From the IMG/VR virus record IMGVR_UViG_3300032053_000144, positions 1 to 45,630 of that record: a DNA stretch of 45,630 nt, one strand, 5' to 3'. The notes below the pieces were generated by a model. The model was not told the DNA's origin, did no database searches, and worked only from the letters and a program-made list of their open reading frames with translations. This DNA is from a virus. Shown piece after piece: positions 6,763 to 45,630 of this stretch; within the stretch, counting starts at the first letter, position 1, and each line of letters begins with the position of its first letter. The position numbers and the translations under genes were made by a program.

Positions 6763-6793
6763 AATGTCTCTCCTAAAATAGGTAAATATTACC

Positions 6794-7426
6794 TTAATGC
6801 CTTGACTCGTCTCGCATTTTCACACGATCTTCAACTAATTGCATTACAAGTGGCGATTTTTTTTCTACTTTTTCTTGTAATTCATTACTTATACTATCAA
6901 CCCAATTTCTTGCCAAAATGTTAGTTTGTAAATGGTTTTTAACTCTTTCATTAACAATTTGTTCTAATTGAACTATTTCTTTTTTAATATTATCAATGGC
7001 TGTAATTACGCCTTTAGAGAAATCTTCTGATTGTAAATTGTCAAACAAATCTACAAATCTATTTACCTGAATTTCAATATCTTCAATAGAAGCAACAAAT
7101 GATTTTAATAATTTTTCAGTTTGTGTATCAGATGTAAAAGGCTGCATTATAACATAGGCTTTAAAGGCTGCTTTTTTAAATTTATTAAAATTATTAACAA
7201 CCTTATCTCTATAACGACGTAACATAGCACGATGTTTAAAAATTACTTCTGGAGTAGTATCTGGGCTTTTCTTAAATGGATTATAAATAAGATTTAAATG
7301 TTTATCGCATTGTTCTACAATCTTTAAACAATGATTAAACCATCGCATAGCTTTTTCGGCTCGCTCTTTTTCACTATCAGAAATCTGATACGTCAGCATT
7401 GAATTATAGGCTTGTTTTTTAAACAT
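6794..7426 (-). CDS. Helical protein of unknown function in the virion block
   Basis: 210 residues, almost entirely predicted helix, Lys/Glu/Asn-rich, with no Cys cluster or catalytic motif except one Cys pair region (CLKIVEQC). It begins MFKKQAYNSMLTYQISDSEKE. The ATG at 7426 overlaps the TAA of the upstream phosphatase-like gene (TAATG). Possible roles include a tail or head completion protein, but nothing specific can be shown. Confidence 0.6.
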   Translation of the reverse strand: MFKKQAYNSMLTYQISDSEKERAEKAMRWFNHCLKIVEQCDKHLNLIYNPFKKSPDTTPEVIFKHRAMLRRYRDKVVNNFNKFKKAAFKAYVIMQPFTSDTQTEKLLKSFVASIEDIEIQVNRFVDLFDNLQSEDFSKGVITAIDNIKKEIVQLEQIVNERVKNHLQTNILARNWVDSISNELQEKVEKKSPLVMQLVEDRVKMRDESRH

Positions 7427-8187
7427 TATACAAATCCTCCGCCTATTACCGATGGTCCAACCATATTAGTTATTTGCGTATTCTGATCAAAAACGCCAAC
7501 TGCTGGAATTTGAGTAGATTTCATCTCTTCATCATTAATGTCTTTTAAGCCGTAATTCTCTCTGGTCTGTTCTGGATTATCAGTATAATAAGTATCGGTA
7601 AAAGCTAATGGATATGTTCTAATAGCGGGGTCCGCATAAGGAGCCCAAGACCCTCTTTCTTGCGTATCAAGAGTATAATCTCTTGATGTTTCATTTCCAT
7701 CGTGCGTATTAGTTACAATATCATAAGCATTATTGGTATCAATATTTTTATCTGCTTGACAAATAAGTTTTATAAAAAATTTTTCCATCTTGTTATCAAT
7801 ACGCATTCCAAAACCCAAATGTTTGGCTTCTTTAATTGCTTTTTTACAATTCCATTTATCTAATAAGCATCTCACTAATCCAATAAATAAGCCAGTACGA
7901 TCTTTGCCGTGAAGACAATGCACAAAAGTTGGAACTTTCTCATCTATTAAATTATAGATATTATGTTTTAATAAATATTTAACACTATTTTTATCGTGAC
8001 AATTAAGTGGAATTATTATTTGCTCAATATCTAATTTTTTACAAAGTGGTTTAATAAATTCTCCCGCTTGCTCGTCAAGTGAAATAATTTTTTTAATATT
8101 AAACTTTTTCTTCAAGGCAACAATATCCGATAAAGAGGGCTTGCCCCCTCTAAAAAGATTAGTTTTAACTTGATGAAAATTTTTCAT
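7426..8187 (-). CDS. Tyrosine/dual-specificity phosphatase-like protein with a virion-type tail
   Basis: 253 residues. The first ~150 have the fold pattern of cysteine-based phosphatases: an N-terminal NLFRGGKPS segment as in DSP enzymes, then the P-loop VHCLHGKDRTG with Cys91 and Arg97 in CX5R spacing. The expected chemistry is hydrolysis of phosphotyrosine/serine or a related phosphoester. The last ~100 residues (from about DNKMEK) have no phosphatase similarity. They are rich in Asp, Thr and Tyr (GSWAPYADPAIRTYPLAF) and end in GPSVIGGGFV, like virion tail peptides. It sits between head genes with TAATG coupling, so it may be packaged. The general acid is not assigned. Confidence 0.75.
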   Translation of the reverse strand: MKNFHQVKTNLFRGGKPSLSDIVALKKKFNIKKIISLDEQAGEFIKPLCKKLDIEQIIIPLNCHDKNSVKYLLKHNIYNLIDEKVPTFVHCLHGKDRTGLFIGLVRCLLDKWNCKKAIKEAKHLGFGMRIDNKMEKFFIKLICQADKNIDTNNAYDIVTNTHDGNETSRDYTLDTQERGSWAPYADPAIRTYPLAFTDTYYTDNPEQTRENYGLKDINDEEMKSTQIPAVGVFDQNTQITNMVGPSVIGGGFV

Positions 8188-8188
8188 T

Positions 8189-8887
8189 TTATAAATTTCT
8201 TACTATACTATTTAATACAGCTCTTACATAATTTGGAGAATGCATCATTAAAATATTTTTAGTTAATGATATTGCTTGTCCAATACTGGCAGAAGCTGGG
8301 ATTTTTTTATTAGAAATATTATATTCATTTAACATATATATTTTTTTCTTTAGCCCATTAATAGATTTTTCTCGACGTTCTCGAGATATGCGTCTCATAA
8401 GAAATTTGATAATTTCGGCTATATATTTTCCAGCATAAGACGGATCTCCCATTTCTATGGCTGATGCTACTTTAGCTAAATTATCTTCTAAACTATCTAT
8501 AAATTTTAATGCTTCTTGTAATGCTAATTCCTCTGGATTACTTTCTTCCTCTATTAATGCATTATCAAATACATTTTTATAAATTTGTTTAAATTGTTTT
8601 AATATTTCTGGTGGAAATTTAGCAGTTATTTGTCTAATAAGTGAAGAATAAGTAATCTCTTCATTAGTAATATTGGCTTTTTTATGTTTAAAAAATTCAA
8701 TTTGACGCAATCGTTTAACGGCTTGCGCTTTAGTTTTAAATTTACCTAAAAGCTTACCTTTTTTAGAATATACTCCCCAATAGCCTTTGGGTATTTTTTT
8801 AATAATAGCTATTTTAGATAAACCTATGGCGTCTGTTTTGCACAGCTCTTCAAATAATGAGCTATGGATTAACAGTGTATTAATCAT
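8189..8887 (-). CDS. Virion-block protein with a Gly/Lys-rich KTKAQAVKRL motif
   Basis: 232 residues. Residues ~32-70 contain KGYWGVYSKKGKLLGKF followed by TKAQAVKRLRQIEFFKH, a short basic beta-alpha motif I have often seen in phage structural or DNA-associated proteins. The rest is helical, with SRERREKS in a basic stretch. The ATG overlaps the end of the upstream gene, with TTAGGGTT as ribosome-binding site. Function unknown; the motif could bind nucleic acid or act as a small assembly domain. Confidence 0.6.
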   Translation of the reverse strand: MINTLLIHSSLFEELCKTDAIGLSKIAIIKKIPKGYWGVYSKKGKLLGKFKTKAQAVKRLRQIEFFKHKKANITNEEITYSSLIRQITAKFPPEILKQFKQIYKNVFDNALIEEESNPEELALQEALKFIDSLEDNLAKVASAIEMGDPSYAGKYIAEIIKFLMRRISRERREKSINGLKKKIYMLNEYNISNKKIPASASIGQAISLTKNILMMHSPNYVRAVLNSIVRNL

Positions 8888-9215
8888 TAAACCCTAACAT
8901 TGCTTTAATTTTTCTTGTATGCCCAGAACCCAACAATACATCATTCAAACTACCACTACTATTTACTTCTGTAAAGGCTTTAATAGCCCAAGTATTTATA
9001 TAAATAATATTACCAGATTTTATCTCATTTTGTTTATTAATATAAAAACAATCAAGAATTATAAAGTCATCTACTATATCTTTTAAAAACCCATAAATTA
9101 CACCGTTAACTTTTTTTACGTGATCGCTCATTACCAGCTCTTCGTAATCATCGCCAATGGAAATTTCTAATAATTTTTCTTTTAAGGTTGGTAATAATGC
9201 GTTTATTTTACTCAT
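8880..9215 (-). CDS. Small beta-rich virion-block protein, function unknown
   Basis: 111 residues with alternating hydrophobic strands (VNGVIYGFLKDIVDDFIIL, then GNIIYINTWAIKAF), a pattern that would suit a small barrel or Sm-like fold. The start overlaps the upstream TGA as ATGA, and the end overlaps the next gene by eight bases. No catalytic motif. Likely a late gene from its position. Confidence 0.55.
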   Translation of the reverse strand: MSKINALLPTLKEKLLEISIGDDYEELVMSDHVKKVNGVIYGFLKDIVDDFIILDCFYINKQNEIKSGNIIYINTWAIKAFTEVNSSGSLNDVLLGSGHTRKIKAMLGFND

Positions 9216-10066
9216 TTTTTATCTCGTAAATGTAAATCAAACCGCGAGGCGACGCGCATCAGCTCTTTTGAAGTATAAGGATATGAAGAGTTCTTTAATA
9301 TTGAATAATTATTACTTTCAGATGCAGAAATAAATTTACTCATTAGTGCCATTAATTTGTTCATAAAAGATGCCCAATATGATTGTTGGGGTTGTAATTG
9401 CGTTGGCACTGCTGCCGATGGCGCATGGGTATCACTAACTTGTACGCCGGTAGCATTATGCATGGCTTTTATAGCATTTTGATAAGTAGATCTTGATTTG
9501 GTTCGATCGACTTGAGCTTGCATATCTCTTAATCTAATAACTCCGGGCATTGAGCCGTGAAATAAGCTATTTTCTTTATATGCTTTTGATTCAAAATTAG
9601 GATCAAGTTTAACACCAATATCATAATACTTTTTACTCCATACGCGATTACCAACTCTAATCGTTTCTGGATGTTCTTCAACAAATATTGCATCAGGATC
9701 ATTGCGCTGTATGCCTGGTAATCGTAATCCAACTGGCAAATATGTGGCAATATAAAATTTTGCTGCGGATTCAAGTGGTCTGCCATTAAAGTTTGCTTGA
9801 GCTTGAATATATTTTTTTACATAATCTAATTGCTCTATGGCTGATACATTTCCAAATTCTTTCCAATTTTTATCATATCCTAAGCCTTTTAGAGTTCCCT
9901 CTGAAAATTGAATTAATCCAATTACGTGGGCTCCGGCTTGATTGGGAATATTAGGATTAATTCCTGATTCGGAAGCCATAATTGCAATTATATCTTCCGG
10001 CTTCATGCCTACTTCAGAGGCAATCTGCACCAATTTGGGATAAAAATTTGCACCTAGGTTTGCCAT
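9212..10066 (-). CDS. Lytic transglycosylase (SLT/lysozyme-like), virion-associated
   Basis: 284 residues. The N-terminal ~140 match the soluble lytic transglycosylase pattern: helix, then IMASESGINPNIPN with catalytic Glu33, then AGAHVIGLIQFSEGTLKGLG and an aromatic-rich helical region with AAKFYIATYLP. Such enzymes cleave glycan strands of peptidoglycan and in phage virions help the tail cross the wall. No signal peptide, and placement inside the structural operon favours a virion enzyme over a lysis protein. The C-terminal half (from ~150) is Gln/Ser-rich with helices and could be the structural anchor. Start TAATG-coupled to the upstream gene; it ends with TGA. Confidence 0.75.
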   Translation of the reverse strand: MANLGANFYPKLVQIASEVGMKPEDIIAIMASESGINPNIPNQAGAHVIGLIQFSEGTLKGLGYDKNWKEFGNVSAIEQLDYVKKYIQAQANFNGRPLESAAKFYIATYLPVGLRLPGIQRNDPDAIFVEEHPETIRVGNRVWSKKYYDIGVKLDPNFESKAYKENSLFHGSMPGVIRLRDMQAQVDRTKSRSTYQNAIKAMHNATGVQVSDTHAPSAAVPTQLQPQQSYWASFMNKLMALMSKFISASESNNYSILKNSSYPYTSKELMRVASRFDLHLRDKK

Positions 10067-12078
10067 TAGTCTTCATTATATTGGTCGATTTGATCTGAAA
10101 AATCTTCATCGCCAACACCCTCGGGTTGTTCTAATTCTTCATCTGTTTGTGGAATTTTAGCTGCCTCTATTCCAAATTGTCTTTTTATACTTCGAATAGT
10201 TAACATACCTTTTGTAGCCGAAACTCTGCATTTAATATGCAATTTAGCGACACCAGATAAATATGTATTAATATCAGCTAAATTAATTCTTGTATATATT
10301 TCTATAGACTTATCTCGTGGATTAAATTCATCCATTACAGGATCGGAGTGCGTAACCCAACCATTATATATGGCTTGTTTCATTAGTGGAATTAAATTTT
10401 GTTCTATAGATTCTATGTAGGGTTCTAAACTAGTAAATCTCTGAACAATACCCAAACGTGTTGCAAAATCTTTTATGACCGTTCTTGTTGTCTCTGGTGT
10501 AATTCTCATTTTATCAGGAGTAATAGCTCTTAATAAACCAAGATCAGTATATGATCTATCTATGCGCCCTTCAGGCAAATCAAGCGTAGGTGGGCGTAAA
10601 AAATTTTGCCTTTCCTCAACTAATTCTTGTGGCTTTGGTGCAACATATTGTAATCCGGATCGCATCGGTTGCTGAACTTGAGGAGTGCCTGTTGGAGGCG
10701 TCTTTCCCAATTCAACTTCTTCTGCCGGACTAGTTACAGCCGGCTTTGATTTTAAAAAATCAAAAATGCCCGCAGTCTTATAATTATTTATAACGTTATG
10801 GGCTATGGTGAGTAATTTGGCACTTGCCTCCGAATTAGTATCTTCTAGTTGTGCAGAATATTTTAATAATTCATTAACAAATAATGATGAATTATTTTGA
10901 TTTGCATAAATAGAAATTTGATCAAGAAATGCCATATGTGTTTTTTTAGTAACCGGATGAGGCAGATCCATTGTAGTGAATTCATCCACTGGACCTTGCG
11001 TTTTTTCAAATTCGTCTAATTTTTTAGTTTTTTCTTCATTCTCCGGCGGTTTCGGCTGTTGCTTTTTCCACTCTTCAAAAGACAATTCATTTATTTGGTT
11101 TTTTGGCACTACAGGTTGTCCTGGTAGCGGTGGAGCAACAAAAGGTGTTGGAGGCGTTGGAGGAGTTTTTTCTTTAATACTTTGCTCATATCGATCATTT
11201 TCCTCAACTTGTTTGATATTAAAATCATCATATGTTTGAGGTGTGCGCGTATTATAGTCTTGTTGTTTTTGCTGTTGTTCTTGTAAGGCTTGTGCCGCTT
11301 TAGCCGCCTTATGTTGTTTCAACGGTTCAATAACTTCTGCACGATAATGTGTATAAACCTTATGATATGCTTTAAATTTTGCCACAAAGTCTTTGGATTT
11401 AGCAATATAAAGCGTTGAATTGCGTCGAGATACGCCACTCTCTAATTCGCTAAATATTGATAAAAGATCTCTTAACATTTTATCTGATTTTTGCACTAAA
11501 TTTGTCGTTAAATTTTTAATTTTTTTAACGAAATCAGTATTGAATCTTTTTTCTAACAACCGACGTGAGAGACCTTTGCCAGTTAAAATATTAGCCGCCG
11601 TATCTGTAACTATATCTTTGCCTGATAAAAATTTCTCTTTCGTCCAATCAAGAATACCGGCTTCTTTAACTAAAGCGTCAAACTCTTCACAAGCCTCTTT
11701 AATAGCGGCATCAGGATCGTATTGAAATAATTCTTCTTGCTCCGGACCTTCAAAATCACTTAAAAAGTAATCATAATTGCCTATTTCAATATTTTTATAA
11801 AATTGTTCTAAAATATGAGCAATGGTTCTTACGCGGGCATGAAATCCGGTAATTTGATGAGCTGCATTTAAATAATCACGTTGACGTACGTTGGATTTTG
11901 CAAATCTAATAAGAGGTCTAACATCTGCAGCTATATCTCTAATTTCTTTATCAACATCTCTCATCTTTTGCATTATTGCTGCAAATTCATCGTTACGATA
12001 CTCTAACGCTTTACCTGAAAGGTTAGCCGTTTCCCAAACCCTACTACGTAATGATCGTTTTTGAGCGAACTTATCCAT
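10066..12078 (-). CDS. Large virion structural protein with central Pro/Gln-rich linker
   Basis: 670 residues. N-terminal ~260 are helical and highly charged. Residues ~265-380 are Gln- and Pro-rich low complexity (EEQQQKQQ-type tract, TPPTPPTPFVAPPLPGQP). A helical segment follows, then a second Pro-rich linker, and the last ~170 contain a more ordered alpha/beta region (PYIESIEQNLIPLMKQAIYN, AKLHIKCRVSATKGMLTIRS). The two-linker architecture recurs in the protein at 20204..21907, suggesting similar virion roles. It lies just downstream of the portal, where neck, adaptor or inner-head proteins are often coded, but no defined family is recognised. TTGAGG is not at this start; the ATG at 12078 follows GTTTTTAA. 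Confidence 0.65.
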   Translation of the reverse strand: MDKFAQKRSLRSRVWETANLSGKALEYRNDEFAAIMQKMRDVDKEIRDIAADVRPLIRFAKSNVRQRDYLNAAHQITGFHARVRTIAHILEQFYKNIEIGNYDYFLSDFEGPEQEELFQYDPDAAIKEACEEFDALVKEAGILDWTKEKFLSGKDIVTDTAANILTGKGLSRRLLEKRFNTDFVKKIKNLTTNLVQKSDKMLRDLLSIFSELESGVSRRNSTLYIAKSKDFVAKFKAYHKVYTHYRAEVIEPLKQHKAAKAAQALQEQQQKQQDYNTRTPQTYDDFNIKQVEENDRYEQSIKEKTPPTPPTPFVAPPLPGQPVVPKNQINELSFEEWKKQQPKPPENEEKTKKLDEFEKTQGPVDEFTTMDLPHPVTKKTHMAFLDQISIYANQNNSSLFVNELLKYSAQLEDTNSEASAKLLTIAHNVINNYKTAGIFDFLKSKPAVTSPAEEVELGKTPPTGTPQVQQPMRSGLQYVAPKPQELVEERQNFLRPPTLDLPEGRIDRSYTDLGLLRAITPDKMRITPETTRTVIKDFATRLGIVQRFTSLEPYIESIEQNLIPLMKQAIYNGWVTHSDPVMDEFNPRDKSIEIYTRINLADINTYLSGVAKLHIKCRVSATKGMLTIRSIKRQFGIEAAKIPQTDEELEQPEGVGDEDFSDQIDQYNED

Positions 12079-12143
12079 TTAAAAACCTCAAGAGACTATA
12101 ATTCAGAAGAATGCAAAATTATGGAGTATTGAAGCTTAAATAA

Positions 12144-13898
12144 TTATGGTGCGGGCGGAGATGCGGGACCGCCAGCTTCAGGGGGAGGAGGTAATCCTGG
12201 GGGCGCTTCAAGTCCAGGCATTCCACCACCACCACCACCATCACCACCGCCGCCAGAGGGCTCATCGTAAGGACTCATGCCTGGAAGAGGAGCGTCTAAG
12301 GTTTCCGGAATTTCATCCTCTTCATTAAGAGTGCGCAATTCATTTAAATTCATTTGTTTTAGAGATGCTTGTTCTTTTTCACGAATAGCATCCGCTATGT
12401 CTTCTTTACGAATTTTACGGCGCTCTTCCTCCCATTCTAAGCCTAATGAGCGATATAAAGTATGAACCGAGACTCTCTTTTGTTCGCCGGTTAAATCTTT
12501 TAGACTCTGAACATATGATTCAAGATCAAATAAACTCATATGATTCCAATCAATTTCTGGAATAATTAAAGTTTTTTCACCATCCACATAATCATAAAAT
12601 TCATTTAGTTTAGCAATGGGTTGAAAAATCTTTTTTCGCAACCAGGCTGACATCATATTTCTAAATTGCATATAGCGTTGACGCAAAACATCCAATGATA
12701 TTCCACCGTTAGCATAGCTAATATCACCGCCACCCTCAATAACAATTTGAGGAATCATAAGACCGGCATACATTTCTTTTAACAACTGCGCAAAGTCATT
12801 AGTTGTATCGTATATGCCGGCTCCGGCGCCTACTGTTTCAACAGTTACAGCATCGTGAGTAAAAATTTTGAAATTTTTATCTGAAGTTGCGGCTGACCAC
12901 ACTTCACGCCAAGCGTCTAAATCTACCGGACTAGCGCGATAATCAGATGTGCCGCCGCCTATTTTAACAATTCTCATAGGATTGATCATATCTTGCGCTT
13001 GTGCAAATTTACACTCTTTGATCATATCAAATAACATTAAAGAGCGAAAAATACTTACCGGCAATCCGGTTCCTCTCACTTCATAAGGACTAATACGACG
13101 AGCCAAATGAGAGACATATAAATTATCTAATGGAATATTTTGTCCGCGGCGCACATAATTAATAATAGTATCATTTAATTGTTTGCGTTGTTCAATATCG
13201 GCAGGCAAATTGGACATACAAATACGACGCAAACTCTCATCTGGTCGTAACATTATAACCGGTTCGCTTGCTATAACCGAACGTTTAATTACGATATAAT
13301 CTGGATTTTGAATATGCAGCCGAGACCATTTGGCATTTCTCTCATCTAATTCGCCATAGATAACCGCTTCGCCTAATAGCCAATATTCTTGAGCTGCCTG
13401 CGAACAAATATTCATTAAGTCAATTTCTTCAATCATATTACTAAAGAATTTTTCTACTTTTTTATTTGGACATTTAATATTAAGCTTACTTATAGGATAA
13501 GTGCTGTGCAAATTAATTGCATTTTGCACAATGGGATTTAAAGCATAAAAGCTGCGACACCAAGCATTCATTGTAGCTCGATCGCGAGGTAAATTTAAAT
13601 TACTTGTTAGCCATAACGGTGAATAAACTTCTGGATTTTGATAAGTAGAGTTATTAACACTTCCTTTAAAGGAATTTGCCGCAGAATCTCCTGCAGATTG
13701 TGCGTATTTTTGGAATTCACTTACGCCACTAACAGCGTAAGATGCTGGTCCTAATGCAGTACCTCGAGAATTGCTCGCCGTACCATCGCGAAAAGTTCCC
13801 TGCTGCACCTCACCTTCTAGTTGTTCTCTGCGATATTGAGAAACAGCTTTATACATTTGGGGAGTTACAGGTGGTGCTAATTTATTATTGTCTGCCAT
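12144..13898 (-). CDS. Portal protein
   Basis: 584 residues. The order and composition fit phage portal proteins: N-terminal flexible region, a WLTSNLNLPRDRATMNAWCR segment, an alpha/beta clip and stem region, then ISLDVLRQRYMQFRNMMSAW and the conserved IPEIDWNHMSLFD and LEWEEERRKIRKEDIADA helices, ending in a Gly/Pro-only tail (GGGGDGGGGGGMPG type). The portal forms the dodecameric ring at the capsid vertex and the dock for the terminase. Immediate adjacency to the large terminase supports this. The Gly/Pro C-terminal tail is longer than usual. Identification is by pattern, not alignment. Confidence 0.8.
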   Translation of the reverse strand: MADNNKLAPPVTPQMYKAVSQYRREQLEGEVQQGTFRDGTASNSRGTALGPASYAVSGVSEFQKYAQSAGDSAANSFKGSVNNSTYQNPEVYSPLWLTSNLNLPRDRATMNAWCRSFYALNPIVQNAINLHSTYPISKLNIKCPNKKVEKFFSNMIEEIDLMNICSQAAQEYWLLGEAVIYGELDERNAKWSRLHIQNPDYIVIKRSVIASEPVIMLRPDESLRRICMSNLPADIEQRKQLNDTIINYVRRGQNIPLDNLYVSHLARRISPYEVRGTGLPVSIFRSLMLFDMIKECKFAQAQDMINPMRIVKIGGGTSDYRASPVDLDAWREVWSAATSDKNFKIFTHDAVTVETVGAGAGIYDTTNDFAQLLKEMYAGLMIPQIVIEGGGDISYANGGISLDVLRQRYMQFRNMMSAWLRKKIFQPIAKLNEFYDYVDGEKTLIIPEIDWNHMSLFDLESYVQSLKDLTGEQKRVSVHTLYRSLGLEWEEERRKIRKEDIADAIREKEQASLKQMNLNELRTLNEEDEIPETLDAPLPGMSPYDEPSGGGGDGGGGGGMPGLEAPPGLPPPPEAGGPASPPAP

Positions 13899-13935: not shown

Positions 13936-16842
13936 TTATCTAGAAGAATAAACAGCCATCACTGATGCTTGTTTTTTCTTTCCAATATCATTTTGTAATA
14001 AAGAATTTCTTACTTGAAAACCTTGAGATAAAAAGAACTTATATGCTATATAAGCATTTAATAAAGCCATAAATCCATCATTTACGCCTGCTTTAATATA
14101 GTGAGGAGTCACTTCTCCGGTTCGCGAAAGGCTTGGTTTAATTTCCATATTAGCACAATGCTGAATGAGCCAAGCTATTTGTTCATAACTGCCCAGCGGA
14201 AATCTAATTAAACCTTGCTTCATCTGCTCATATAATTCCATAATCCAAAAATCTCTTTCAAATGTAATAACTTTAGGAAAGATATCTGCATTATATTTAA
14301 CTTTTTCTGTAACTCTACCTGCTGCCTGAGAGGCAAGAAATTTATCACCATATTCTGTTTGCATAATTTCATTAAAATCGTGCGCATATCCAATATCGCA
14401 AACTGCTAATTTGCATTTATATCTTTTCATTTCTTCATCTAAAACGCTTTTTTTACTCGCTAAATCATTTCTTTTAAATTTAAAAGCGTGTTCAATAGAT
14501 AATTTTCCGGGACCCGTAAGGGATAAAACTACCGCAGTGCTATAACTTTGTCCCTGTCCTCTAATTTTATCAGAATTAACCAACTGTTCCAGATCGGCTT
14601 TAGCGCCGATATCTATTCCAAGAAATGTGATAACTTCTTCGCCTGGAGCGACAGCCCCTCTAAATTTTCTTTCTGGATCGCCACATTTGATGCGAATTTC
14701 TTCTGGAGTAATAATTCCAGCTTCACCTTGAAAAAATTCTCCCAAAATTTCATTTTGATACGATCGCTCGGTGTTAATTGCCGAATTACCTGGCTTCTTA
14801 TCCATAATCTGTTCTTTGGTAAATTCTGGCAAATATAATTGATTTAAATGAAATCCAACGAATTTTGCCTCTGCTGGATCTTTTAATGGAATCCATTTGC
14901 CGCGATCAATGGCTTGTAACCGATCTTGTTCATAATTACAATGAGTGCATTTAACTATATTTCCATAAATCCAAATAGATTCCCAATCATTAGATCCAGG
15001 CGTATAAAGGGGGAAAGTTTTTTTACATTGCTCGCAGCCTAAATGATAAAATTGTTGCGAAGACTGTTGCCATAAATGCCAAAATTCAGAGCCCCGTTGC
15101 AATGGTGTGCCAAAAAATACCTGCACGCCTTCGCCAAGCATTCCATATTGTGCTTTAGTTAAAACTTTTGTTGAATTAGATAATGCCGCTGGCGGCATTT
15201 CTTGACAATTATGAACTATTGGTCCGCCACTATTCTTACTTCTTCTCGAAGGAGCAATAACAAAATTATGATTATCTGCAATTTCAATATCATAAACATT
15301 TTCCAATGTATTACATAGTTCAATACTATCTACTACTGTAAAATTATATGATTTATAATCATTATTCCATATATAGTCACTATTAATATAGTTACTTACT
15401 TTATATGATAAATTTTTATGAATATATGGTCGTATAATATTGCATAATTCGCTAAATCCTTTTTTATTAAAAAATAGTGAAAAATATTTTTTATTATTTG
15501 AAGCCTTATATAATTTATAATGACACTCAATACCTAATGATCTAAATTTTTCAACAAATCTTATGTGACTATCTTCATCAAAGGAGTTTGTAGATATGCA
15601 TCCGCTAGACCCAGTATTCCAAGTATTTCTATTACCATCATCCATAAACCATATTGCTATCCCGCGAGCGTCTAAATTATCTAAAATCCATTGAGGACAA
15701 GTAGTTTTAGTAAGAGGTAATTCTTCTTGTAATCCAAATGTTTTGGTGCAAAATTTAATTGCTTCTTTATTAGAATAACCATTTTTTTGTATTTTTATAG
15801 TTTTACAATTAAATTGTTCAGCTTTCCATTGACAATATTCTGTTTGTTTTATATCATGTATAATATTTAATCTATATCTATTATTTTTATAGGTGGATAA
15901 ATGACCATCTCCAAGAAATGATCCTAAAATAATTTGCATTTGATCATCATTAACCGCTCGAATACAAAGATTAGTTCCATTTGATGTTTTTAATAAAGTT
16001 CCGACAGTTAAATTATTAGCTTCTTTCCAACCATTTTCAGTTAGAAACCTATGATTTGGAGTACATTTAATTATTTTATTACCACATATTATTTTTAATA
16101 ATTGCCTTTCTCCCTTGTTCCAAGCATTTGTTATTTTTTTATATTCAAAAAGTTCAGTATTTTCATTAAATGATTTAATAAGGGGGGTTGTTTTTCCTAA
16201 AAGGAAATTATCATATAATTTTCCTATTTTTTCTTTTCCATCAGTAGTTTCAACATACTGATCATATGGAAAACATTCATCAAAGAACATAACATCAGCC
16301 GTTTTTCCACGTAATCTGGAACCCTCTAAACCAACCGACTCAATCCATAAATGATTACCACCAATAAATTGTTTAAATCCCATATTATCATTTGCTTGTG
16401 ATGAAGTATCAATCAATGACTTCATATATGGTTTTTGTCCTTTTTTACCATTAGTAAGATTAACTAAAATGGAGGACTCAATCATAGAGGCTAATTTTGT
16501 TTTTGAATATGCTGCTGCACGATCCAAAGTGGGCCAATTATGAATAATTCTCATAGGAGGATTATTAGCCGTGCCAAATAATCCAGAACCCATAAAATAC
16601 ATCTCTAATGCAGATGCAGTCGTTGTTCCGGCAACCTGGCGCGCCTTAACCCATACTACTGGCTTACCATCTCTATCTAACGCTTTAACACCTATGTATC
16701 TAAAAATATCAACTAACGGCTTATAGCCGCTGGCGGTTAATCTAAATGGCTTACCATCAAGAGTTAAATATTTTTCTGACCACGCAACTGGATCCATAGC
16801 TAATAATGAATCTCGTATCTTATTGAATATTTGGTCTGACAT
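13936..16842 (-). CDS. terL: Terminase large subunit containing an intein
   Basis: 968 residues from the ATG at 16842 (an in-frame GTG at 16872 adds ten). The ATPase half has a deviant Walker A, VKARQVAGTTTA, with the Lys before Arg rather than in GK(S/T), and Walker B ADVMFFDE. Directly after that Glu an intein (15208..16275) interrupts the gene; the extein resumes with CQEMPPAAL and a coupling motif region FFGTPLQRGS. The nuclease half has FLGIDIGAKADL, LAVCDIGYAHD and VNDGFMALLNAY, matching the acidic RNase H-like nuclease motifs. A CEQCKK...CTHCNYE pair set may be a zinc ribbon between domains. The spliced protein, about 612 residues, is normal for TerL. It drives DNA packaging with the portal encoded downstream. 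Confidence 0.9.
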   Translation of the reverse strand: MSDQIFNKIRDSLLAMDPVAWSEKYLTLDGKPFRLTASGYKPLVDIFRYIGVKALDRDGKPVVWVKARQVAGTTTASALEMYFMGSGLFGTANNPPMRIIHNWPTLDRAAAYSKTKLASMIESSILVNLTNGKKGQKPYMKSLIDTSSQANDNMGFKQFIGGNHLWIESVGLEGSRLRGKTADVMFFDECFPYDQYVETTDGKEKIGKLYDNFLLGKTTPLIKSFNENTELFEYKKITNAWNKGERQLLKIICGNKIIKCTPNHRFLTENGWKEANNLTVGTLLKTSNGTNLCIRAVNDDQMQIILGSFLGDGHLSTYKNNRYRLNIIHDIKQTEYCQWKAEQFNCKTIKIQKNGYSNKEAIKFCTKTFGLQEELPLTKTTCPQWILDNLDARGIAIWFMDDGNRNTWNTGSSGCISTNSFDEDSHIRFVEKFRSLGIECHYKLYKASNNKKYFSLFFNKKGFSELCNIIRPYIHKNLSYKVSNYINSDYIWNNDYKSYNFTVVDSIELCNTLENVYDIEIADNHNFVIAPSRRSKNSGGPIVHNCQEMPPAALSNSTKVLTKAQYGMLGEGVQVFFGTPLQRGSEFWHLWQQSSQQFYHLGCEQCKKTFPLYTPGSNDWESIWIYGNIVKCTHCNYEQDRLQAIDRGKWIPLKDPAEAKFVGFHLNQLYLPEFTKEQIMDKKPGNSAINTERSYQNEILGEFFQGEAGIITPEEIRIKCGDPERKFRGAVAPGEEVITFLGIDIGAKADLEQLVNSDKIRGQGQSYSTAVVLSLTGPGKLSIEHAFKFKRNDLASKKSVLDEEMKRYKCKLAVCDIGYAHDFNEIMQTEYGDKFLASQAAGRVTEKVKYNADIFPKVITFERDFWIMELYEQMKQGLIRFPLGSYEQIAWLIQHCANMEIKPSLSRTGEVTPHYIKAGVNDGFMALLNAYIAYKFFLSQGFQVRNSLLQNDIGKKKQASVMAVYSSR
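15208..16275 (-). other. Intein with LAGLIDADG homing endonuclease inside terminase
   Basis: Codes 356 residues. The N-terminal splice residue is Cys (FFDE|CFPYDQYVETTDG). Block B is CTPNHRFLTENGW. Two dodecapeptide motifs, IILGSFLGDGHLS and GIAIWFMDDGNRN, mark a single-chain LAGLIDADG endonuclease. The C-terminal splice region is VYDIEIADNHNFVIA ... GGPIVHN followed by Cys+1 (HN|CQEMP). All canonical catalytic residues for class 1 splicing (Cys1, penultimate His, terminal Asn, Cys+1) are present. The reading frame is open throughout. It sits exactly after the Walker B catalytic acid, so an unspliced terminase cannot be active. Confidence 0.92.
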
Positions 16843-16919
16843 ATAATGGCTTATTAAAAATAATTTTCTCACAAATTTAGGTTTGCAAGTTTTATGTTAT
16901 AACTGTAATTGTAGTAAAA

Positions 16920-26139: not shown

Positions 26140-26610
26140 TCAAAACGGGTCACTATCTCTTAAATCAGCGATTTTTTGTAAAATCTCATTAACTTTCTGG
26201 TCTTCTTTTACAATTTTTTGTAATTTTAATCTTACACCACCATAAGTAATGGGCTTACCTTTATTGTCTTTATTCTTATAATCGACGTTCCCATTTATGC
26301 ATTTTGTTATTGATGATTGGTTTACGCCTAATGCTTTAGCAATTTCTATTTGCGTTTTGCCAGAAGCGGATAGCTTAACTACCTCTTTTTGACGCTCCGT
26401 GAGATTATCCTCTATAATACGCCAAAGCTCTACATTTAATTGTTCTTGTAATTCCGCAATATCGTCATTATATGAGAATGGGTTTAATTTTTTATATATA
26501 GAGTCATTATCGGAGAAGATATCTAATAATTCGTGAGGGTAGGATATTTCCAAAAGTAAATTTTGGTAGGAATCGCTTCGATTTTTTATTTTTTTATAAT
26601 CTCTCATCAT
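26140..26610 (-). CDS. Sigma-70 region-4-like HTH protein, possible late regulator
   Basis: 156 residues. Residues ~70-107 read LTERQKEVVKLSASGKTQIE then IAKALGVNQSSITKCING. This is the classical region-4/LuxR-like helix-turn-helix used to bind -35 elements or other DNA. The N-terminal ~60 and C-terminal ~45 residues are helical and charged, without recognisable sigma region 2, so it is not a full sigma factor. It lies at the junction of the replication block and the virion block, just downstream of a terminator, a good place for a late-gene activator. A small terminase subunit with HTH is an alternative. AAAGG precedes the ATGATG start; it ends TGA. Confidence 0.65.
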   Translation of the reverse strand: MMRDYKKIKNRSDSYQNLLLEISYPHELLDIFSDNDSIYKKLNPFSYNDDIAELQEQLNVELWRIIEDNLTERQKEVVKLSASGKTQIEIAKALGVNQSSITKCINGNVDYKNKDNKGKPITYGGVRLKLQKIVKEDQKVNEILQKIADLRDSDPF

Positions 26611-26611
26611 A

Positions 26612-26821
26612 TTAACCTTTAATATTATTTCTTAATAAAAGATTGCCAATAGTTGTTACACTACATTTATTAATTTTAGCCAATTCTCTTCTCGATACTG
26701 TCCCACTTTTATAAATATCACATATTTCCAATTCCTGCTCCAACGTAAATTTATTACAACCATTAGAAGATTTATTATAATCACTAACTATATATCCCTG
26801 TATTTCTCATAATTTAGACAA
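26612..26821 (-). pseudogene. Decayed HTH/homing-endonuclease-like fragment with in-frame TGA
   Basis: From a possible TTG at 26821 the frame reads LSKL, then TGA (26807..26809), then 64 open codons: EIQGYIVSDYNKSSNGCNKF and further, with the HTH GTVSRRELAKINKCSVTTIG followed by NLLLRN. The HTH is like those in NUMOD-type homing endonuclease tails. Replacing the TGA by Trp gives a natural protein start. There is no ATG in frame. It lies between the primase terminator and the sigma-like gene. Either a relic or a sequence error; no other gene occupies these bases. Confidence 0.45.
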
Positions 26822-26858
26822 AATAAAACCACCGTAGCAAATAGTTACTGCGGTGGTT
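26820..26858 (-). terminator. Intrinsic terminator after the primase gene
   Basis: On the minus strand AACCACCG pairs with CGGTGGTT (stem extended by three weaker pairs, loop about ten bases), followed directly by TTTTATTT. It begins 24 bases after the primase stop codon and closes the replication operon ahead of the regulator and virion genes. Confidence 0.85.
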
Positions 26859-26882: not shown

Positions 26883-27650
26883 TTAATTAATTAATAATTT
26901 GTGTAATTCTTCATTGCTTGAAACCGGTATCTCGCTTAAAAAGTCATCTAAATCTTTAAAGCCCGATGGAACATATGCATTAGAGAAATTAGTATATTTA
27001 CCATACTTCTCTAATATTCTTTCCCTACCTATTTTACCCGCCTCATCATTGTCTAATAAAAGTTTAATATTATTAGTATAACGTAATATAAGCAACAGCT
27101 GTTCTGGCGACATATTTGATGAGCCTAAAGCAATTACATTATGTATGCCTTTATTGTGCGCTTGAATGCAATCAAATTGCCCCTCAACAAGATAAACATA
27201 CCCTTGATTAATAATTGATAATTTGGATTCAAATAACCCGAAGAGATGCTCACTTTTTTTAAAAGAAGTATTCTTATACTTTGGAATATTTAAAGTTGCC
27301 CTCTCCTCATCATTCAACAAAGATCGTCCTACAAGGGCAATAATATTGCCATATGCATCTTTATAGGGTAAAATTAAATTATGATCTTCCAATGAAGAGA
27401 AGAAAATCTTGTATTCAGAATCTATATTTTTTTCATAGATAAAATTATTCTCAATTAAAAATGCTTCACTTATAAATGAAAATAACATTTTCAATTGATC
27501 TTGGGGAGGGAAGAAGCCAAATCCAAATTTGACTTGAACCTCTGGTTTTAATCTTTGATTTAAATAAGCTAAAGCTTTATTTGCTATTGGACAAGTATAT
27601 AGCAGATTACTGCACACTTCTACTATAGAATTATATTTATTTATTTGCAT
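26883..27650 (-). CDS. DnaG-type primase catalytic core without zinc domain
   Basis: 255 residues. The TOPRIM motifs are clear: YLVEGQFDCIQAH (catalytic Glu), then ALGSSNMS and KLLLDNDEAGKIGR (DxD pair). The upstream part (YLNQRLKPEVQVKFGFGFFP, LILPYKDAYGNIIALVGRSL) matches the N-terminal half of the DnaG RNA polymerase domain. It would make RNA primers for DnaE. The usual CHC2 zinc-binding domain is missing: the protein starts directly at the polymerase domain. The preceding gene encodes a free zinc-ribbon protein and overlaps by 14 bases, suggesting the zinc function is supplied separately. The helicase-binding C-terminal domain is also absent. Confidence 0.85.
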   Translation of the reverse strand: MQINKYNSIVEVCSNLLYTCPIANKALAYLNQRLKPEVQVKFGFGFFPPQDQLKMLFSFISEAFLIENNFIYEKNIDSEYKIFFSSLEDHNLILPYKDAYGNIIALVGRSLLNDEERATLNIPKYKNTSFKKSEHLFGLFESKLSIINQGYVYLVEGQFDCIQAHNKGIHNVIALGSSNMSPEQLLLILRYTNNIKLLLDNDEAGKIGRERILEKYGKYTNFSNAYVPSGFKDLDDFLSEIPVSSNEELHKLLIN

Positions 27651-27975
27651 TTACCAACATACTTTGCAGCATTATTTTAAATGATGCGCTTATGTTTGTT
27701 AGTTCTTGTTTACAAATTTTACACATAAGCTTATCTTTCTCTAGGTATGGCACTCCTTCAGCTTCACATTTGAGGCACTTAACCGAATAAGCTTCGCTAG
27801 TTTTTTCTCGCTTAGTAGTTTGTCCTAATGTTTTTAATGTATTTTTAGTAAAAAAAGTAACATCTTTAATGACATTACCGCATTCTGCGCACAACACAGT
27901 ATTACTTAATATTTCTAATTTTGCTGCTTGAGGCTTCATACAACCTTTGTTATCGCAATTTATTATTACTGGCAT
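27637..27975 (-). CDS. Double zinc-ribbon protein next to primase
   Basis: 112 residues with eight Cys in two sets: C7/C12 with C29/C32 (CAECG), and C67/C70 (CLKC) with C85/C88 (CKIC). Each set has the spacing of a zinc ribbon. The remainder is basic, with KTLGQTTKREKTSEAYSVKC between the ribbons. It overlaps the DnaJ gene upstream by ten bases and the primase downstream by 14 bases, so the two are tightly co-translated. I infer a DNA- or primase-binding role; a transcription-related zinc ribbon is possible. Confidence 0.7.
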   Translation of the reverse strand: MPVIINCDNKGCMKPQAAKLEILSNTVLCAECGNVIKDVTFFTKNTLKTLGQTTKREKTSEAYSVKCLKCEAEGVPYLEKDKLMCKICKQELTNISASFKIMLQSMLVNANK

Positions 27976-28958
27976 TTTTTTAATGCTCCTATTAATATAG
28001 ATATATCATCTGGGTAATTTACATTTAGCTGTATAACGTGCGCCCCATCAGTATCTTTAACTCCGCATTTAGGTATTTGTATTTGATCAGAGTGTTTGCT
28101 CTGTGGTTGTATAATAATTTCTTTATTACCATAAACAGTTTCTATTTCTTTAGAAACACCCTCTAAAGCTTCTAATAAAGATATTGTAACACTAGAACAT
28201 ACATTCTTATCTTTTAGATATAAATCTTTATATGGCTCTACCTTCAATTGAACTAAAACATCAGTATAACTATCGCCTAACATATGTCTGCCTGCAAAAT
28301 TACCTTCGCCAGCTAATCGCAATACTTCATTATTATTACTTCCTGCAGGAATATTAATCATACCAGTTCTTTTATCGCTAATAACCTTTTTACCAGCACA
28401 GGTAACACATTTATCTTTTTTGGTATTTTTACCATAACATTTGTCACAAGATGTTTGAAAAATCATACCCTTATTATTTAAGGTGCGTCTTCCAAAACCA
28501 TCACATTTATCACAACCATTTCCGGTGTGTTTACTGCCAGCCCCTTGGCATAAAGAACATTTCAAATTTCTCTCATAAGATACTTCTTTAGTGCAACCCA
28601 AAACAGATTCGTGAAAAGAAATATTCAATATAATTTGAATATGTGTTGGTGGCGGTAGACGATCATCGTTATTTGATGCATTTCTAAAAAAATCTCCCCC
28701 ATTGAAGAAAATATCACCCAAATCAACAACATTATTCCAAAATCCACCACCTTGCATTTTAGGTTGATATTTTTCAGGATGCGCCCGATAATCAATAATT
28801 AATTGATGAGCTTCATTAATTTCCTTTAATTTATCAGGTTGATCTTTATTAACATCAGGATGATAAGTTCGCGCCAATTCTCTATATTTCTTTTTTAAGT
28901 CTTCGTCTGAAATATTTATATCTACTCCCAGAGTAGAATATGCTTTCTTAATATCCAT
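27966..28958 (-). CDS. dnaJ: DnaJ (Hsp40) co-chaperone
   Basis: 330 residues from the ATG at 28958 (a longer frame start at 29030 lies within the upstream gene and is rejected). It has the full type I arrangement: J domain with YHPDVNK (HPD), a short Gly/Phe region (GGGFWNN, FFNGGDFFRN), a zinc domain with four motifs (CSLCQGAG, CDKCDGFG, CDKCYGKN, CVTCAGKK; the last two lack the final Gly), and a C-terminal substrate-binding region (RLAGEGNF, VLVQLKVEP). It should activate the host DnaK ATPase. No DnaK or GrpE is in the window. The placement next to primase and trigger factor suggests help with replication-complex assembly or capsid folding. Confidence 0.92.
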   Translation of the reverse strand: MDIKKAYSTLGVDINISDEDLKKKYRELARTYHPDVNKDQPDKLKEINEAHQLIIDYRAHPEKYQPKMQGGGFWNNVVDLGDIFFNGGDFFRNASNNDDRLPPPTHIQIILNISFHESVLGCTKEVSYERNLKCSLCQGAGSKHTGNGCDKCDGFGRRTLNNKGMIFQTSCDKCYGKNTKKDKCVTCAGKKVISDKRTGMINIPAGSNNNEVLRLAGEGNFAGRHMLGDSYTDVLVQLKVEPYKDLYLKDKNVCSSVTISLLEALEGVSKEIETVYGNKEIIIQPQSKHSDQIQIPKCGVKDTDGAHVIQLNVNYPDDISILIGALKKCQ

Positions 28959-28959
28959 T

Positions 28960-29535
28960 TTATTTAGCTTCTTGTTGTTGTAAGAGTTTATAACAATAAT
29001 ATGCGACGGCAACTGCGTCAGCCATATCATTTCTTTCTTCTCTAATTTTTAGACCAGATCTAGTTTTTTTGGTGGGACTTGGAATTGTTATATTCAACAA
29101 TTTTTCTAAAATGTCCGGTATTTCTTCTTTGCCGGGCAGATCAGTTCTACCGATATCTTTTTTAATACGCGTGCGTATTGACATAACATTGCAAATGTAA
29201 AGCGGTGTTTTCGCGTATTGTTCATACATTGAAAGGCATATCGTCCTATTTAAACAACTTAGGGGAATAATTGTTCCTGCACCCGAATGACCTTTCATAA
29301 ATCTGATAAAATCCTCTATCGCAATATAATCCGGCTTATACTTTTCGACAAGCACCAAAATATGCTTTTTAGCTTCCGAGAGTGTAAATAAAAAATCTAT
29401 ATTTTTATCTTCAATAGTATGTTTAATTGGTTTATAGTAATCTATATAAACCAGTTTAGCTTTTCCTTTTTTATCAAAATCAATAACGCAAATGCCAATA
29501 GTAGATGTAGATATATCAAATGAAATAATACGCAT
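28960..29535 (-). CDS. RuvC-like RNase H-fold nuclease
   Basis: 191 residues from the ATG at 29535 (a TTG at 29541 is also in frame). The RuvC pattern is present: MRIISFDISTSTIGICV (first Asp), DYIAIEDFIRFMKG (Glu), and ERNDMADAVAVAYYC (Asp pair near the end). Phage and bacterial proteins of this type cut Holliday junctions or branched DNA. It is followed one base later by dnaJ and preceded by a terminator, so it probably starts a new transcript, though no clear ribosome-binding site is seen. Junction resolution during packaging or recombination fits its neighbours, but substrate is inferred. Confidence 0.75.
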   Translation of the reverse strand: MRIISFDISTSTIGICVIDFDKKGKAKLVYIDYYKPIKHTIEDKNIDFLFTLSEAKKHILVLVEKYKPDYIAIEDFIRFMKGHSGAGTIIPLSCLNRTICLSMYEQYAKTPLYICNVMSIRTRIKKDIGRTDLPGKEEIPDILEKLLNITIPSPTKKTRSGLKIREERNDMADAVAVAYYCYKLLQQQEAK

Positions 29536-38513: not shown

Positions 38514-39776
38514 TTATTCTACAATAGTAGAAGTTTTAGTAATAAAAGATATTGTAGCATCATCTTTAATAGATACCACCAAAGCTCCCATATATCCTGA
38601 TTTAATAATCATATCAAATATTTCTTCATCTGATTTTCCTTGCATTCCTGGTAATGCAGAATATTGTGAAACATTTGATTTAATTGTATTCATAACTTCC
38701 TCATCTGATAATTGCGCATCAGGCTCTGATTCTCTAATCTTATCCAGAATAATAGATAATTTTACATTTCTAGCGGCAGCTTGAATAAGGTGATTTTTTT
38801 CACCATCTACTAACTCTTCCCAATTTTTATTATTTTGCTTTGCAAGTAATTGCGCCTCAAAAGTAGATAACCAACTAGGTATTTCAAAAGTATGATTTGC
38901 CACTAGTCGATTAGATATTTGCTCTGCCAAATGTTTCTGCTCTAATTCTTGAACCCTTTTACTCGCCATACCTTGAGCTAAGGATATCATTTCAGCAACA
39001 TCTTTGGCTCCTATTTTGATGGCAAGGGTGTCATCAAGAGCGGCGGGACTTGATTTTGATGCCATCATCAATTCAACTTTAAAGGTTATTTCTTTGCCTA
39101 CAAATTCTGGAGCAGATACGTTATCTGGTATAACAGCGGTAAATTCTCTCGTCTCTCCAACTTTCAAGCCCAACATATTATCATTAAATGCTTCAATCGG
39201 AGATTTGCCAACTACAAATAACTCTCCATCAACACTAACGACCGGCTCCCGTTGTCCGGCAAGATGCCCGACATAATTTATAATAGCCGTATCATTAGCT
39301 TGAACAAAATCATCTACCTCAAAGGGAACAGTAGTCCCGTTGCGATTTCTTAATTCTTGAATAATTTTTTCAGACATTTCTATAGAATTAACAGTATTAC
39401 CTTTAGTGAGGTTGAAATTCTTATATTCTTGCAATTCTACTTCTGGAACTTTATTAACAGAAAAGTTGCATTTAAATTTTAAACCATCCAAGGTAAGCGA
39501 TGAAAACTGTGGCTGTCCGAAGGGTCTAATATTTTTTTCAGCTATTACGGTTTGAAATGCATTTTGTGCCAATTCATTTTTCAACACTTCATCAATTTTA
39601 TGCTTAAAATGATGAGTTATAGCAGAAAGGGTGGCTTTACCTGGTCTGAAGCCTGGCACTTGTTCTTTTTTAAAGTATTTAATAACTTCTGTTCTTTTAT
39701 CTTTAACTTGTTTAGTATCTGCCTCAAATTGCACATTTAAACGACAATAATCTATTTCTTTAACTTCTATAAGCAT
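38514..39776 (-). CDS. tig: Trigger factor (ribosome-associated chaperone)
   Basis: 420 residues with the three trigger-factor parts: ribosome-binding domain with VPGFRPGKATL (bacterial signature GFRxGxxP) at ~40-50, a PPIase-like middle (TAIINYVGHLAGQREP, FVVGKSPIEAFNDNMLGLKV, FTAVIPDNVSAPEFVGKEI), and a helical C-terminal cradle (TFEIPSWLSTFEAQLLAKQN). Length is close to bacterial proteins of ~430. It would bind the ribosome near the tunnel exit and hold nascent phage proteins. The stop TAA precedes the next small gene by 68 bases; the upstream neighbour is the decaying HNH gene. A phage copy is rare. Confidence 0.9.
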   Translation of the reverse strand: MLIEVKEIDYCRLNVQFEADTKQVKDKRTEVIKYFKKEQVPGFRPGKATLSAITHHFKHKIDEVLKNELAQNAFQTVIAEKNIRPFGQPQFSSLTLDGLKFKCNFSVNKVPEVELQEYKNFNLTKGNTVNSIEMSEKIIQELRNRNGTTVPFEVDDFVQANDTAIINYVGHLAGQREPVVSVDGELFVVGKSPIEAFNDNMLGLKVGETREFTAVIPDNVSAPEFVGKEITFKVELMMASKSSPAALDDTLAIKIGAKDVAEMISLAQGMASKRVQELEQKHLAEQISNRLVANHTFEIPSWLSTFEAQLLAKQNNKNWEELVDGEKNHLIQAAARNVKLSIILDKIRESEPDAQLSDEEVMNTIKSNVSQYSALPGMQGKSDEEIFDMIIKSGYMGALVVSIKDDATISFITKTSTIVE

Positions 39777-44050: not shown

Positions 44051-45630
44051 TTAATGTGTATTAATACACAATCGACCTTTAGATACATTGTTTTCATCTT
44101 GTTCGATTAAAATTGTGTGTGAAAATTTATATTTAAGATTTTCATCGTGTGTAATGACTAAAACTTTTAGTTCATTTTGAATAACTTTAATGATTTCTGC
44201 AAATATTTCGGTGCTACCAGGATCTAGCGGCTGATTTACTTCATCTAATAGCATTAACTTAATATCGACGCCCAATCTTTTATTTATTATAAATAATATT
44301 GCTAATTTAAGAGATAATGAAACTATAATTTTCTGGGCGCCAGAAAGTTGCTTATACTCTCTCTGATTGCCATCTATAAAATATAGTATATCTAATGTAT
44401 CTTCTTTGTCTTTGTCTTTATTTGTATTTTTATCATTAATAACAACAAATTGTAACTGTAGTCCGGGGCGTAATTTTAGTAACCATTTATTAGCTTCGCC
44501 TTGCAATTCATCGAGAATACTGTGCGTAATAAGTGAAGGAATTCCATTTGAACCAAATGCTTGAATTACTTTCGAATGTAATTGTAATGATTTCTCTAAT
44601 TCTTGAATGTCTTTTTTAAGATCTATAATCTTAATCCTATTAAGAATAGATTGTTCAACTTTATGTTTGATAATAGCCTGCTTACCTATCAAATTTGATA
44701 TTTCTGATGAAAGTTGTGTTTCTTTGTTTGAAGACTTTGTTATATCAAGCCTTAATTCATCTAATCTATTAAAAGTTAAATTATTTTTATCTAAAACAAT
44801 TAAGGCAGATAATTCTTGTTGAATAGTCTCTAATTCAATATTTTTAGAACGTAGGGATACTATATGATCTTCAAGAAGCACATTATAATTTTTATATAAT
44901 AATCTTTTTGCTTCTAATTCTTTAGATAAATAATCTATTTTAGATTCCCAAGTAGATAATGTATTTTTAATAGCTATACGTGTGCCGATAAGGGTATCTA
45001 CTTCGGTTCTACTATCTGCTAATTCTAGCAGATCTTTATTTAGAGTTATTTTATCTTTTTCTAACTTTAGAATTTCTTCTTTATTTTTAATAGTCCAATT
45101 ATGCTTATGTTCTTCTGATATATTTTGATGACAATGTGAGCAATTTTTTTCTTCTGTAATTGGATGATTTAATTCTTCAAGTTTTACTTTGACAATTATC
45201 AGTGCATTTTTTGCAATTAAGAACTTTTCTAATAACTTGGAGGCGTCAATATTTAAAGGCTCTATATCAATTTGTTCTTTTTTATGCTCATCTACCCAAG
45301 ATTGCATACTATCTAATTCTTTTTGAATGTCTTTTGCTTCTTTTGGTAGGGAGGCAATTTTTAATTTCAAATCTTCGATAGTTTTATGTGATTTTGCTAT
45401 ACCGTCTTTACAAATAGACTCTGTATTTGTAATACTTGAGATTTTTGCACGAGAGCCGGAAACTTTATCTGATAATAAAGTATATTCTGATTTTAATGAA
45501 GCCAACTTATCTTTAATAAATGAAATGTTTTTATTATATATAGTAAGTATTTTATCTGACTCTTCTTGTTCTTTTGTCAAGGAGACAAGTAATGTGTCCG
45601 GATCTCCAATAGTAGTTAAAATAACTTTTT
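44051..45630 (-). CDS. Rad50/SbcC (gp46)-like ATPase, 5' end outside window
   Basis: About 526 codons in the window; the reading frame runs open to the right edge, so the N-terminal Walker A is missing from view. The visible part has long coiled coils, a zinc hook CSHCHQNI around the middle, and a C-terminal ABC half with QLSGAQKIIVSLSLKLAIL (signature), IKLMLLDEVNQPLD (Walker B) and ITHDENLKY (switch His). This is the Rad50/SbcC/gp46 architecture. With a gp47-like partner it would process DNA ends for recombination-driven replication; that partner is not in the window. Confidence 0.9.
   Translation of the reverse strand, partial: KVILTTIGDPDTLLVSLTKEQEESDKILTIYNKNISFIKDKLASLKSEYTLLSDKVSGSRAKISSITNTESICKDGIAKSHKTIEDLKLKIASLPKEAKDIQKELDSMQSWVDEHKKEQIDIEPLNIDASKLLEKFLIAKNALIIVKVKLEELNHPITEEKNCSHCHQNISEEHKHNWTIKNKEEILKLEKDKITLNKDLLELADSRTEVDTLIGTRIAIKNTLSTWESKIDYLSKELEAKRLLYKNYNVLLEDHIVSLRSKNIELETIQQELSALIVLDKNNLTFNRLDELRLDITKSSNKETQLSSEISNLIGKQAIIKHKVEQSILNRIKIIDLKKDIQELEKSLQLHSKVIQAFGSNGIPSLITHSILDELQGEANKWLLKLRPGLQLQFVVINDKNTNKDKDKEDTLDILYFIDGNQREYKQLSGAQKIIVSLSLKLAILFIINKRLGVDIKLMLLDEVNQPLDPGSTEIFAEIIKVIQNELKVLVITHDENLKYKFSHTILIEQDENNVSKGRLCINTH

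Follow-up and report, generated by a model that had tools for sequence, protein, structure and literature searches.

The primase core encoded in the 45,630-nt stretch of viral DNA analysed here (IMG/VR virus record IMGVR_UViG_3300032053_000144, hereafter the window) is, with a probability that we put at about 0.85, the catalytic part of a DnaG primase split over two genes. Its template would be recognised in trans by a CHC2 protein encoded about 20 kb upstream, outside the fragment. Judged from sequence, the zinc half of this split primase is most likely the standalone CHC2 protein and not the product of the zinc-ribbon gene that adjoins the core. An earlier note on this DNA had read the locus as a split primase in which the overlapping neighbour supplies the zinc ribbons. 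The split holds, with the core as an ORF of its own in all relative loci and a separate zinc protein in the relatives, whereas the proposed supplier is not supported, since a CHC2 ORF lies elsewhere in 16 of 16 longer records. The finding is real, conserved and useful; the partner had been misidentified, and splits of this kind are known. It also corrects a tempting annotation, in which an adjoining zinc protein is taken for the missing primase domain.

A standalone DnaG-type primase core

The gene at 26883-27650 (minus strand) encodes a standalone DnaG-type primase catalytic core of 255 amino acids. The product matched DNAG_N from residue 23 on (E = 5.4e-11, covering profile positions 11-127 of 128) and Toprim_2 (E = 7.7e-14), with the Toprim domain ending at about residue 238, and its best match among solved structures was residues 125-344 of Aquifex aeolicus DnaG (2au3, E = 2.3e-25). 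Because residue 252 of 255 pairs with Aquifex residue 344, little sequence is left past the Toprim region. The EGQFD and LDNDEAG motifs are retained, and R109, K124, K132, E156, D160, D200, D202 and G205 are invariant in an alignment of 28 core sequences. A degenerate or dead primase was ruled out by this invariance of the catalytic motifs. Set against a complete DnaG, the 255-aa core has DNAG_N and Toprim with the acidic motifs, and it carries neither CHC2 nor a C-terminal helicase-binding domain in the same polypeptide: zinc-domain (PF01807/CHC2) and helicase-binding (DnaB-binding) families both gave zero matches at E ≤ 1. The earlier claim that the core starts at the polymerase domain, without a zinc domain, was borne out by these matches and by the lack of a zinc match at E ≤ 1.

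We scanned viral contigs with the core and found 171 relatives, of which 80, on contigs of up to 452 kb, were kept. Our counts refer to those 80 loci or to 63 distinct loci, obtained by counting loci with identical last 230 core residues once. All 80 loci encode the core as a separate ORF, 245-292 aa long. A search of the phage collection returned 128 distant matches to the core, each below 60% identity, and zero near DNA matches to positions 15000-38000 of the window. Among distant core relatives in IMG/VR (n = 32, L005-L036, duplicates included), 19 ORFs measured 306-323 aa and 16 carried a zinc-like motif in the same ORF, which places fused forms of the primase outside the lineage of the window's core. 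Two gut phage relatives were found to encode a fused primase, in ORFs of 1329 and 1332 aa.

A separate CHC2 zinc protein in the relatives

The relatives encode a DnaG-type zinc ribbon in a protein of its own. We searched for PF01807 (CHC2) in 16 longer records, in phage G and in the window. The 16 records represent 16 of the 17 contigs of at least 65 kb among the 80 kept of 171 relatives (L115 was left out), and every one of them contained a standalone ORF, with open frames of 196-231 aa, that scored over the curated cut-off. The 45.6-kb window gave no PF01807/CHC2 match.

A search with the zinc protein itself yielded 108 matches, 80 of which were kept as the basis for counting. From the 36 contigs of at least 100 kb, we counted 34 (L156 and L184 were left out; records G009 and G011, already PF01807-positive). 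A standalone core, with frames of 225-274 aa, accompanied the zinc protein in all 34, and 33 also encoded the double zinc-ribbon protein described below. In 33 of the 34, the zinc gene shares the strand of the core and is found 17.5-28.2 kb upstream of it (median 21.4 kb); in this count, as in that of the 16 records, the records are partly non-independent, with identical spacing in G007/G008, G036/G037 and G025/G034. The exception, G038, has the zinc gene and the core on opposite strands, with a partial core match (profile positions 122-246), and gave no ribbon-protein match. At a distance of 20 kb, the layout ties the zinc gene to the core by co-occurrence and fixed spacing only.

Both sequence and predicted fold relate the zinc protein to the zinc domain of DnaG. 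An alignment of 32 members showed C49, P50, H54, C75, G77 and C78 to be invariant, and PF01807 was matched by all 14 zinc proteins scanned, that is, the 16 minus L143 and L146, which duplicate the sequences of L142 and L140. A simple CP-x-H motif pattern was absent in several deep relatives (e.g. L199, L211 and L228), where the tblastn match holds. The zinc-protein profile matched residues 13-104 of Aquifex DnaG (2au3, E = 2.5e-11) and the B. stearothermophilus ZBD (1d0q, E = 3.2e-10). Because the matches of the two phage proteins to 2au3 (13-104 and 125-344) are adjacent and non-overlapping, the split point falls between the zinc and polymerase domains.

We utilized AlphaFold to model the zinc protein of the closest relative, with a pLDDT of 87. 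The best structural matches of the model were again 2au3 (Z 10.0, rmsd 3.5, 92 aligned) and 1d0q (Z 9.9, rmsd 3.7, 98 aligned), followed lower down by T4 primosome chain 8dvf_H (Z 5.3, rmsd 3.9, 80 aligned), which is presumably gp61. The C-terminal three-helix bundle matched generic helical bundles only. In the phage collection, 75 matches to the zinc protein were found, none covering 80% of it. A DnaB_C helicase exceeded the cut-off in 7 of the 16 longer records, all of at least 193 kb, and one 204-kb record was without it.

Expected position of the CHC2 gene

The window ends within an SbcC-like gene (44051-45580, minus strand), the frame of which is open to the record end and pairs with residues 222-725 of a relative in L154 that is 728 aa long. 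There, SbcC is preceded by a 394-aa metallophosphoesterase gene, which we read as SbcD-like, and a 187-aa CHC2 gene. In the closest relative of the window, contig 3300031885_002484, whose core is 79% identical, the CHC2 gene is located some 18 kb upstream of the core and is followed by the metallophosphoesterase and SbcC genes. Since the CHC2 gene is the second gene upstream of SbcC in the closest relative, and SbcC is truncated by the window, the CHC2 gene of the window's phage is probably located just outside the fragment, about 2 kb past the window end. Synteny thus points to the presence of this gene in a phage whose standalone core lies in the window and whose 16 longer relatives all encode the CHC2 protein.

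The split in an isolated phage

Bacillus phage G (JN638751), an isolated phage, also has the two-gene split, with gp419 as a core of 235 aa and gp229 as a zinc protein of 210 aa. The latter is the sole PF01807 match in the record and is encoded three genes after a gene annotated as helicase. As in the window's relatives, DnaG core and zinc protein are two genes; unlike in those relatives, the two genes are about 154 kb apart. No clear double-ribbon protein was found in phage G, where one weak match (E = 0.013) contained 2 stops. Because the split occurs without a clear ribbon copy in both phage G and G038, the sequences suggest that the ribbon protein is dispensable for a split primase. A stand-in among the other zinc ribbons of phage G is conceivable; about 35 copies of another zinc ribbon have been reported for it (PMC7824862). 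Being isolated, phage G is a place to study the split primase.

Comparison with known primases and proposed mechanism

The kind of split described here is already in print, in a paper by Iyer et al. It describes a standalone primase-type zinc ribbon that accompanies the DnaG-like primase in group 2 (T4-like) jumbo phages (PMC7824862, 2021), so that DnaG-type core and primase-type zinc ribbon are separate proteins there, as in the window's relatives. Those phages have a family B polymerase, whereas the replicase of the window is a PHP-type DNA polymerase III alpha, which the same paper puts in its subgroup 3.2. Section 3.4.1 of that paper gives no positions, fixed distance or double-ribbon neighbour, in contrast to what is found in the window's relatives. 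Among the open-licence papers listed, judged by title or abstract start, we found no description of the split in Pol III-alpha huge phages or of the double-ribbon family.

Both the zinc and the RNA-polymerase domain of bacterial DnaG (Aquifex aeolicus 2au3; B. stearothermophilus ZBD 1d0q) are matched in sequence by the two phage proteins, and the zinc protein matches in predicted fold as well. The phage version differs from bacterial DnaG in consisting of two polypeptides, a core for which no C-terminal helicase-binding domain was found and a zinc protein with an extra three-helix bundle. The title of a 2005 paper by Corn et al. suggests that zinc domains can act in trans between primase subunits. 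T4 gp61, like the phage pair, has a zinc domain and an RNA-polymerase domain as two working parts, which dock separately on the helicase (gp41), at two neighbouring sites with the template between them (PMC10359460). The T4 domains are joined by an 18-residue linker (PMC10359460), whereas the phage pair has none; the T4 linker between zinc and polymerase domains has been suggested to act as a tape measure that sets the 5-nt primer. For B. subtilis DnaG, isolated domains were reported to form no stable DNA complex and the joined pair to form one (PMC5429622).

In the mechanism that we propose, the 255-aa protein holds the RNA-polymerase (DNAG_N/Toprim) domain, and template recognition would be provided in trans by the separate protein of about 190-230 aa, with its DnaG-type CHC2 zinc ribbon and C-terminal three-helix bundle. 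Core and zinc protein would meet, probably docked side by side on the phage DnaB-type helicase as the T4 gp61 domains are, with the three-helix bundle as a putative docking domain. Separate docking of the T4 domains, unstable DNA binding by the isolated B. subtilis domains and zinc domains acting in trans suggest that the helicase may hold the two primase halves together. A natural linker-free two-gene primase, kept across a large phage lineage, would offer a direct test of the linker as a primer-length ruler: if primer length is still tightly set without a linker, docking or another factor measures it. This linker-free primase, along with the strongly conserved zinc protein beside the core, is the main interest of the system. 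More speculatively, and in our estimate improbably, the primase of Pol III-alpha huge phages could be a linker-free enzyme of three components (a bare DnaG core, a mobile CHC2 protein with a docking domain, and a bridging or regulating double-ribbon protein) in which helicase docking, not a tether, sets primer start and length.

The double-ribbon neighbour and its gene block

The gene at 27637-27975 (minus strand), which overlaps the core gene by 14 nt on its upstream side, encodes a conserved double zinc-ribbon protein of 112 aa. Its two four-cysteine ribbons comprise C7, C12, C29 and C32, and C67, C70, C85 and C88. All eight cysteines are invariant across 38 aligned homologues, the seed set of which was chosen by cysteine content and the later members by profile without that filter. 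The two halves of the protein align with each other (hhalign probability 96.1, E = 2.9e-9), and its AlphaFold model (pLDDT 75, pTM 0.40) has a helix after each ribbon, which together identify a tandem ribbon-helix repeat.

The ribbon protein had zero Pfam matches over cut-off, and none to PF01807 at E ≤ 1. Using the model (pLDDT 75), Foldseek found nothing in the PDB at E ≤ 0.001, and VIA-align gave a top Z of 2.9 (rmsd 2.7, 44 aligned), which rules nothing out. The top match of the profile among PDB sequences was ribosomal protein L34 (E = 0.0042), taken as generic, and the phage collection contained no match at E ≤ 1. Among the 17 PF01807 matches in the 16 longer records, none fell at the place of the ribbon gene. 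The earlier description of the overlapping upstream gene as encoding two zinc ribbons of a different type is therefore correct, given the 14-nt overlap, the eight cysteines and the lack of PF01807. In one relative (L041:4675-5000, G012), the ribbon gene is split into two overlapping frames, through a frameshift or a sequencing error.

The 112-aa protein is an additional conserved member of a replication/recombination block that is kept across huge-phage contigs, in which the genes are ordered UvsX-like recombinase, SSB, RuvC-like, DnaJ-like, ribbon protein, core, HTH protein and 150-aa protein. The DnaJ-like gene (27966-29030, minus strand), syntenic in the relatives, encodes a co-chaperone with a Cys-rich region (DnaJ_C 1.8e-21, DnaJ 1.2e-12); judged by eye, its true start is probably near 28958. 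The ribbon gene was present in 58 of the 63 distinct loci (from 80 of 171 relatives). Five loci lack an adjoining ribbon gene: four of them start close to a contig edge or right at it, and in the fifth (L051, record G003) the gene is 7.5 kb upstream of the core, directly behind dnaJ. With such exceptions, the pairing of core and ribbon gene is not due to chance. In G003 (L240), a 428-kb contig, the interval of about 7.4 kb between the two genes (about 5240 to 12685 of the reversed stretch) holds only ORFs of 78-129 aa on the coding strand in the filtered listing.

The earlier note had suggested checking whether the gene order is conserved. It is, but conservation extends over the entire block from UvsX to HTH. 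In 55 of 56 loci the ribbon gene directly adjoins dnaJ, with a gap above 60 nt in 1 of 56, and it adjoins the core (within 100 nt) in 45 of 58, overlapping it in 19 of 58 (longest starts assumed). In 13 of the 58 loci (12 if L041 is set aside), a gap above 100 nt separates it from the core, and 12 of these 13 intervals contain an ORF of at least 75 aa. Given conservation of the block as a whole and the more frequent contact with dnaJ, closeness to the core counts only weakly towards a partnership with it. In three deep lineages (L236, L238 and L239), a RecA-family gene lies between dnaJ and the ribbon gene, which is still beside the core. Gene order as proof of partnership was set aside, both neighbours of the ribbon gene being sometimes separated from it. 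Pairwise distances for six neighbours in 37 loci showed the ribbon protein tracking the core best (partial correlation 0.45, followed by SSB with 0.31), a weak hint, as such correlations come from related, non-independent sequences and are not a significance test. Linkage, in sequence terms, does not settle the partner of the ribbon protein.

Role of the double-ribbon protein

The earlier reading, in which the double-ribbon protein is the missing zinc domain of the core and chooses the template, agrees with its frequent proximity to or overlap with the core gene, with its place beside the core where a RecA-family gene parts it from dnaJ, and with its distances tracking those of the core best. 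This candidate was nevertheless weakened once a PF01807 ORF was found in whole records: all 16 carry a DnaG-type zinc ribbon elsewhere in the same genome. Phage G and G038, moreover, have core and CHC2 protein but no clear ribbon protein, although phage G may have a stand-in, and in G003 the ribbon gene has stayed behind dnaJ, 7.5 kb from the core. That neither family, profile nor Foldseek searches matched it to a primase zinc domain points the same way and alone shows little. We consider this reading very unlikely. Ribosomal frameshifting at the 14-nt overlap, fusing both ORFs into one protein, would fit the 19 of 58 loci in which the ORFs overlap, but 39 have no overlap, 13 of them a gap above 100 nt, mostly with an ORF inside, and a zinc domain gained by fusion would be redundant with the CHC2 protein. 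As the overlap is not conserved, we rejected this fusion, to which we give almost no credence.

The ribbon protein could instead be an accessory subunit, such as a clamp placed between the core and the zinc protein or an adaptor to SSB or helicase, with core and CHC2 protein as the enzyme. Of the 34 contigs with core and CHC2 protein, 33 also have the ribbon protein, which speaks for such a three-part primase, as do its core-adjacent gene in three deep lineages and the top rank of the core in distance tracking, although the latter draws on related sequences and is not a significance test. The more regular contact with dnaJ than with the core, and the lack of a clear copy in phage G and G038, speak against it, and we regard it as possible but rather doubtful. 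Alternatively, the ribbon protein may serve the DnaJ-like chaperone or phage transcription (an HTH gene follows the core), and lie near the core merely through the conserved operon. Conservation of the whole block fits this role, as does the wide spacing from the core in 13 of 58 loci compared with a separation from dnaJ in 1 of 56. The weak top profile matches, to ribosomal and other generic ribbons, agree with it, but being generic they name no pathway, and in the three lineages with an intervening RecA-family gene it is the core that the ribbon gene stays with. We hold this role plausible, at slightly less than an even chance.

Other features of the window and its relatives

Several further observations were made in and around the block. 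Directly downstream of the core, the window contains the decayed C-terminus of a GIY-YIG homing endonuclease (26609-26848, minus strand), an open relative of which is found at L001:6865-7701. In the window, the HTH (sigma-4/LuxR-like) gene that follows the core runs without interruption (26140-26610), whereas its counterparts in the two closest relatives (L001:7703-8632 and L002:6812-7738) each contain an intein (Intein_splicing 5.6e-16 and 2.8e-15). At L004:3630-4106, a 158-aa ORF rich in short Cys/Asn repeats lies between the SSB and RuvC genes. Elsewhere in the window, a trigger-factor-like protein (38514-39776, minus strand; Trigger_N 4.4e-21) is encoded in addition to the DnaJ-like protein, and the terminase large subunit gene (13936-16872, minus strand) contains an intein with a LAGLIDADG endonuclease at residues about 215-539.
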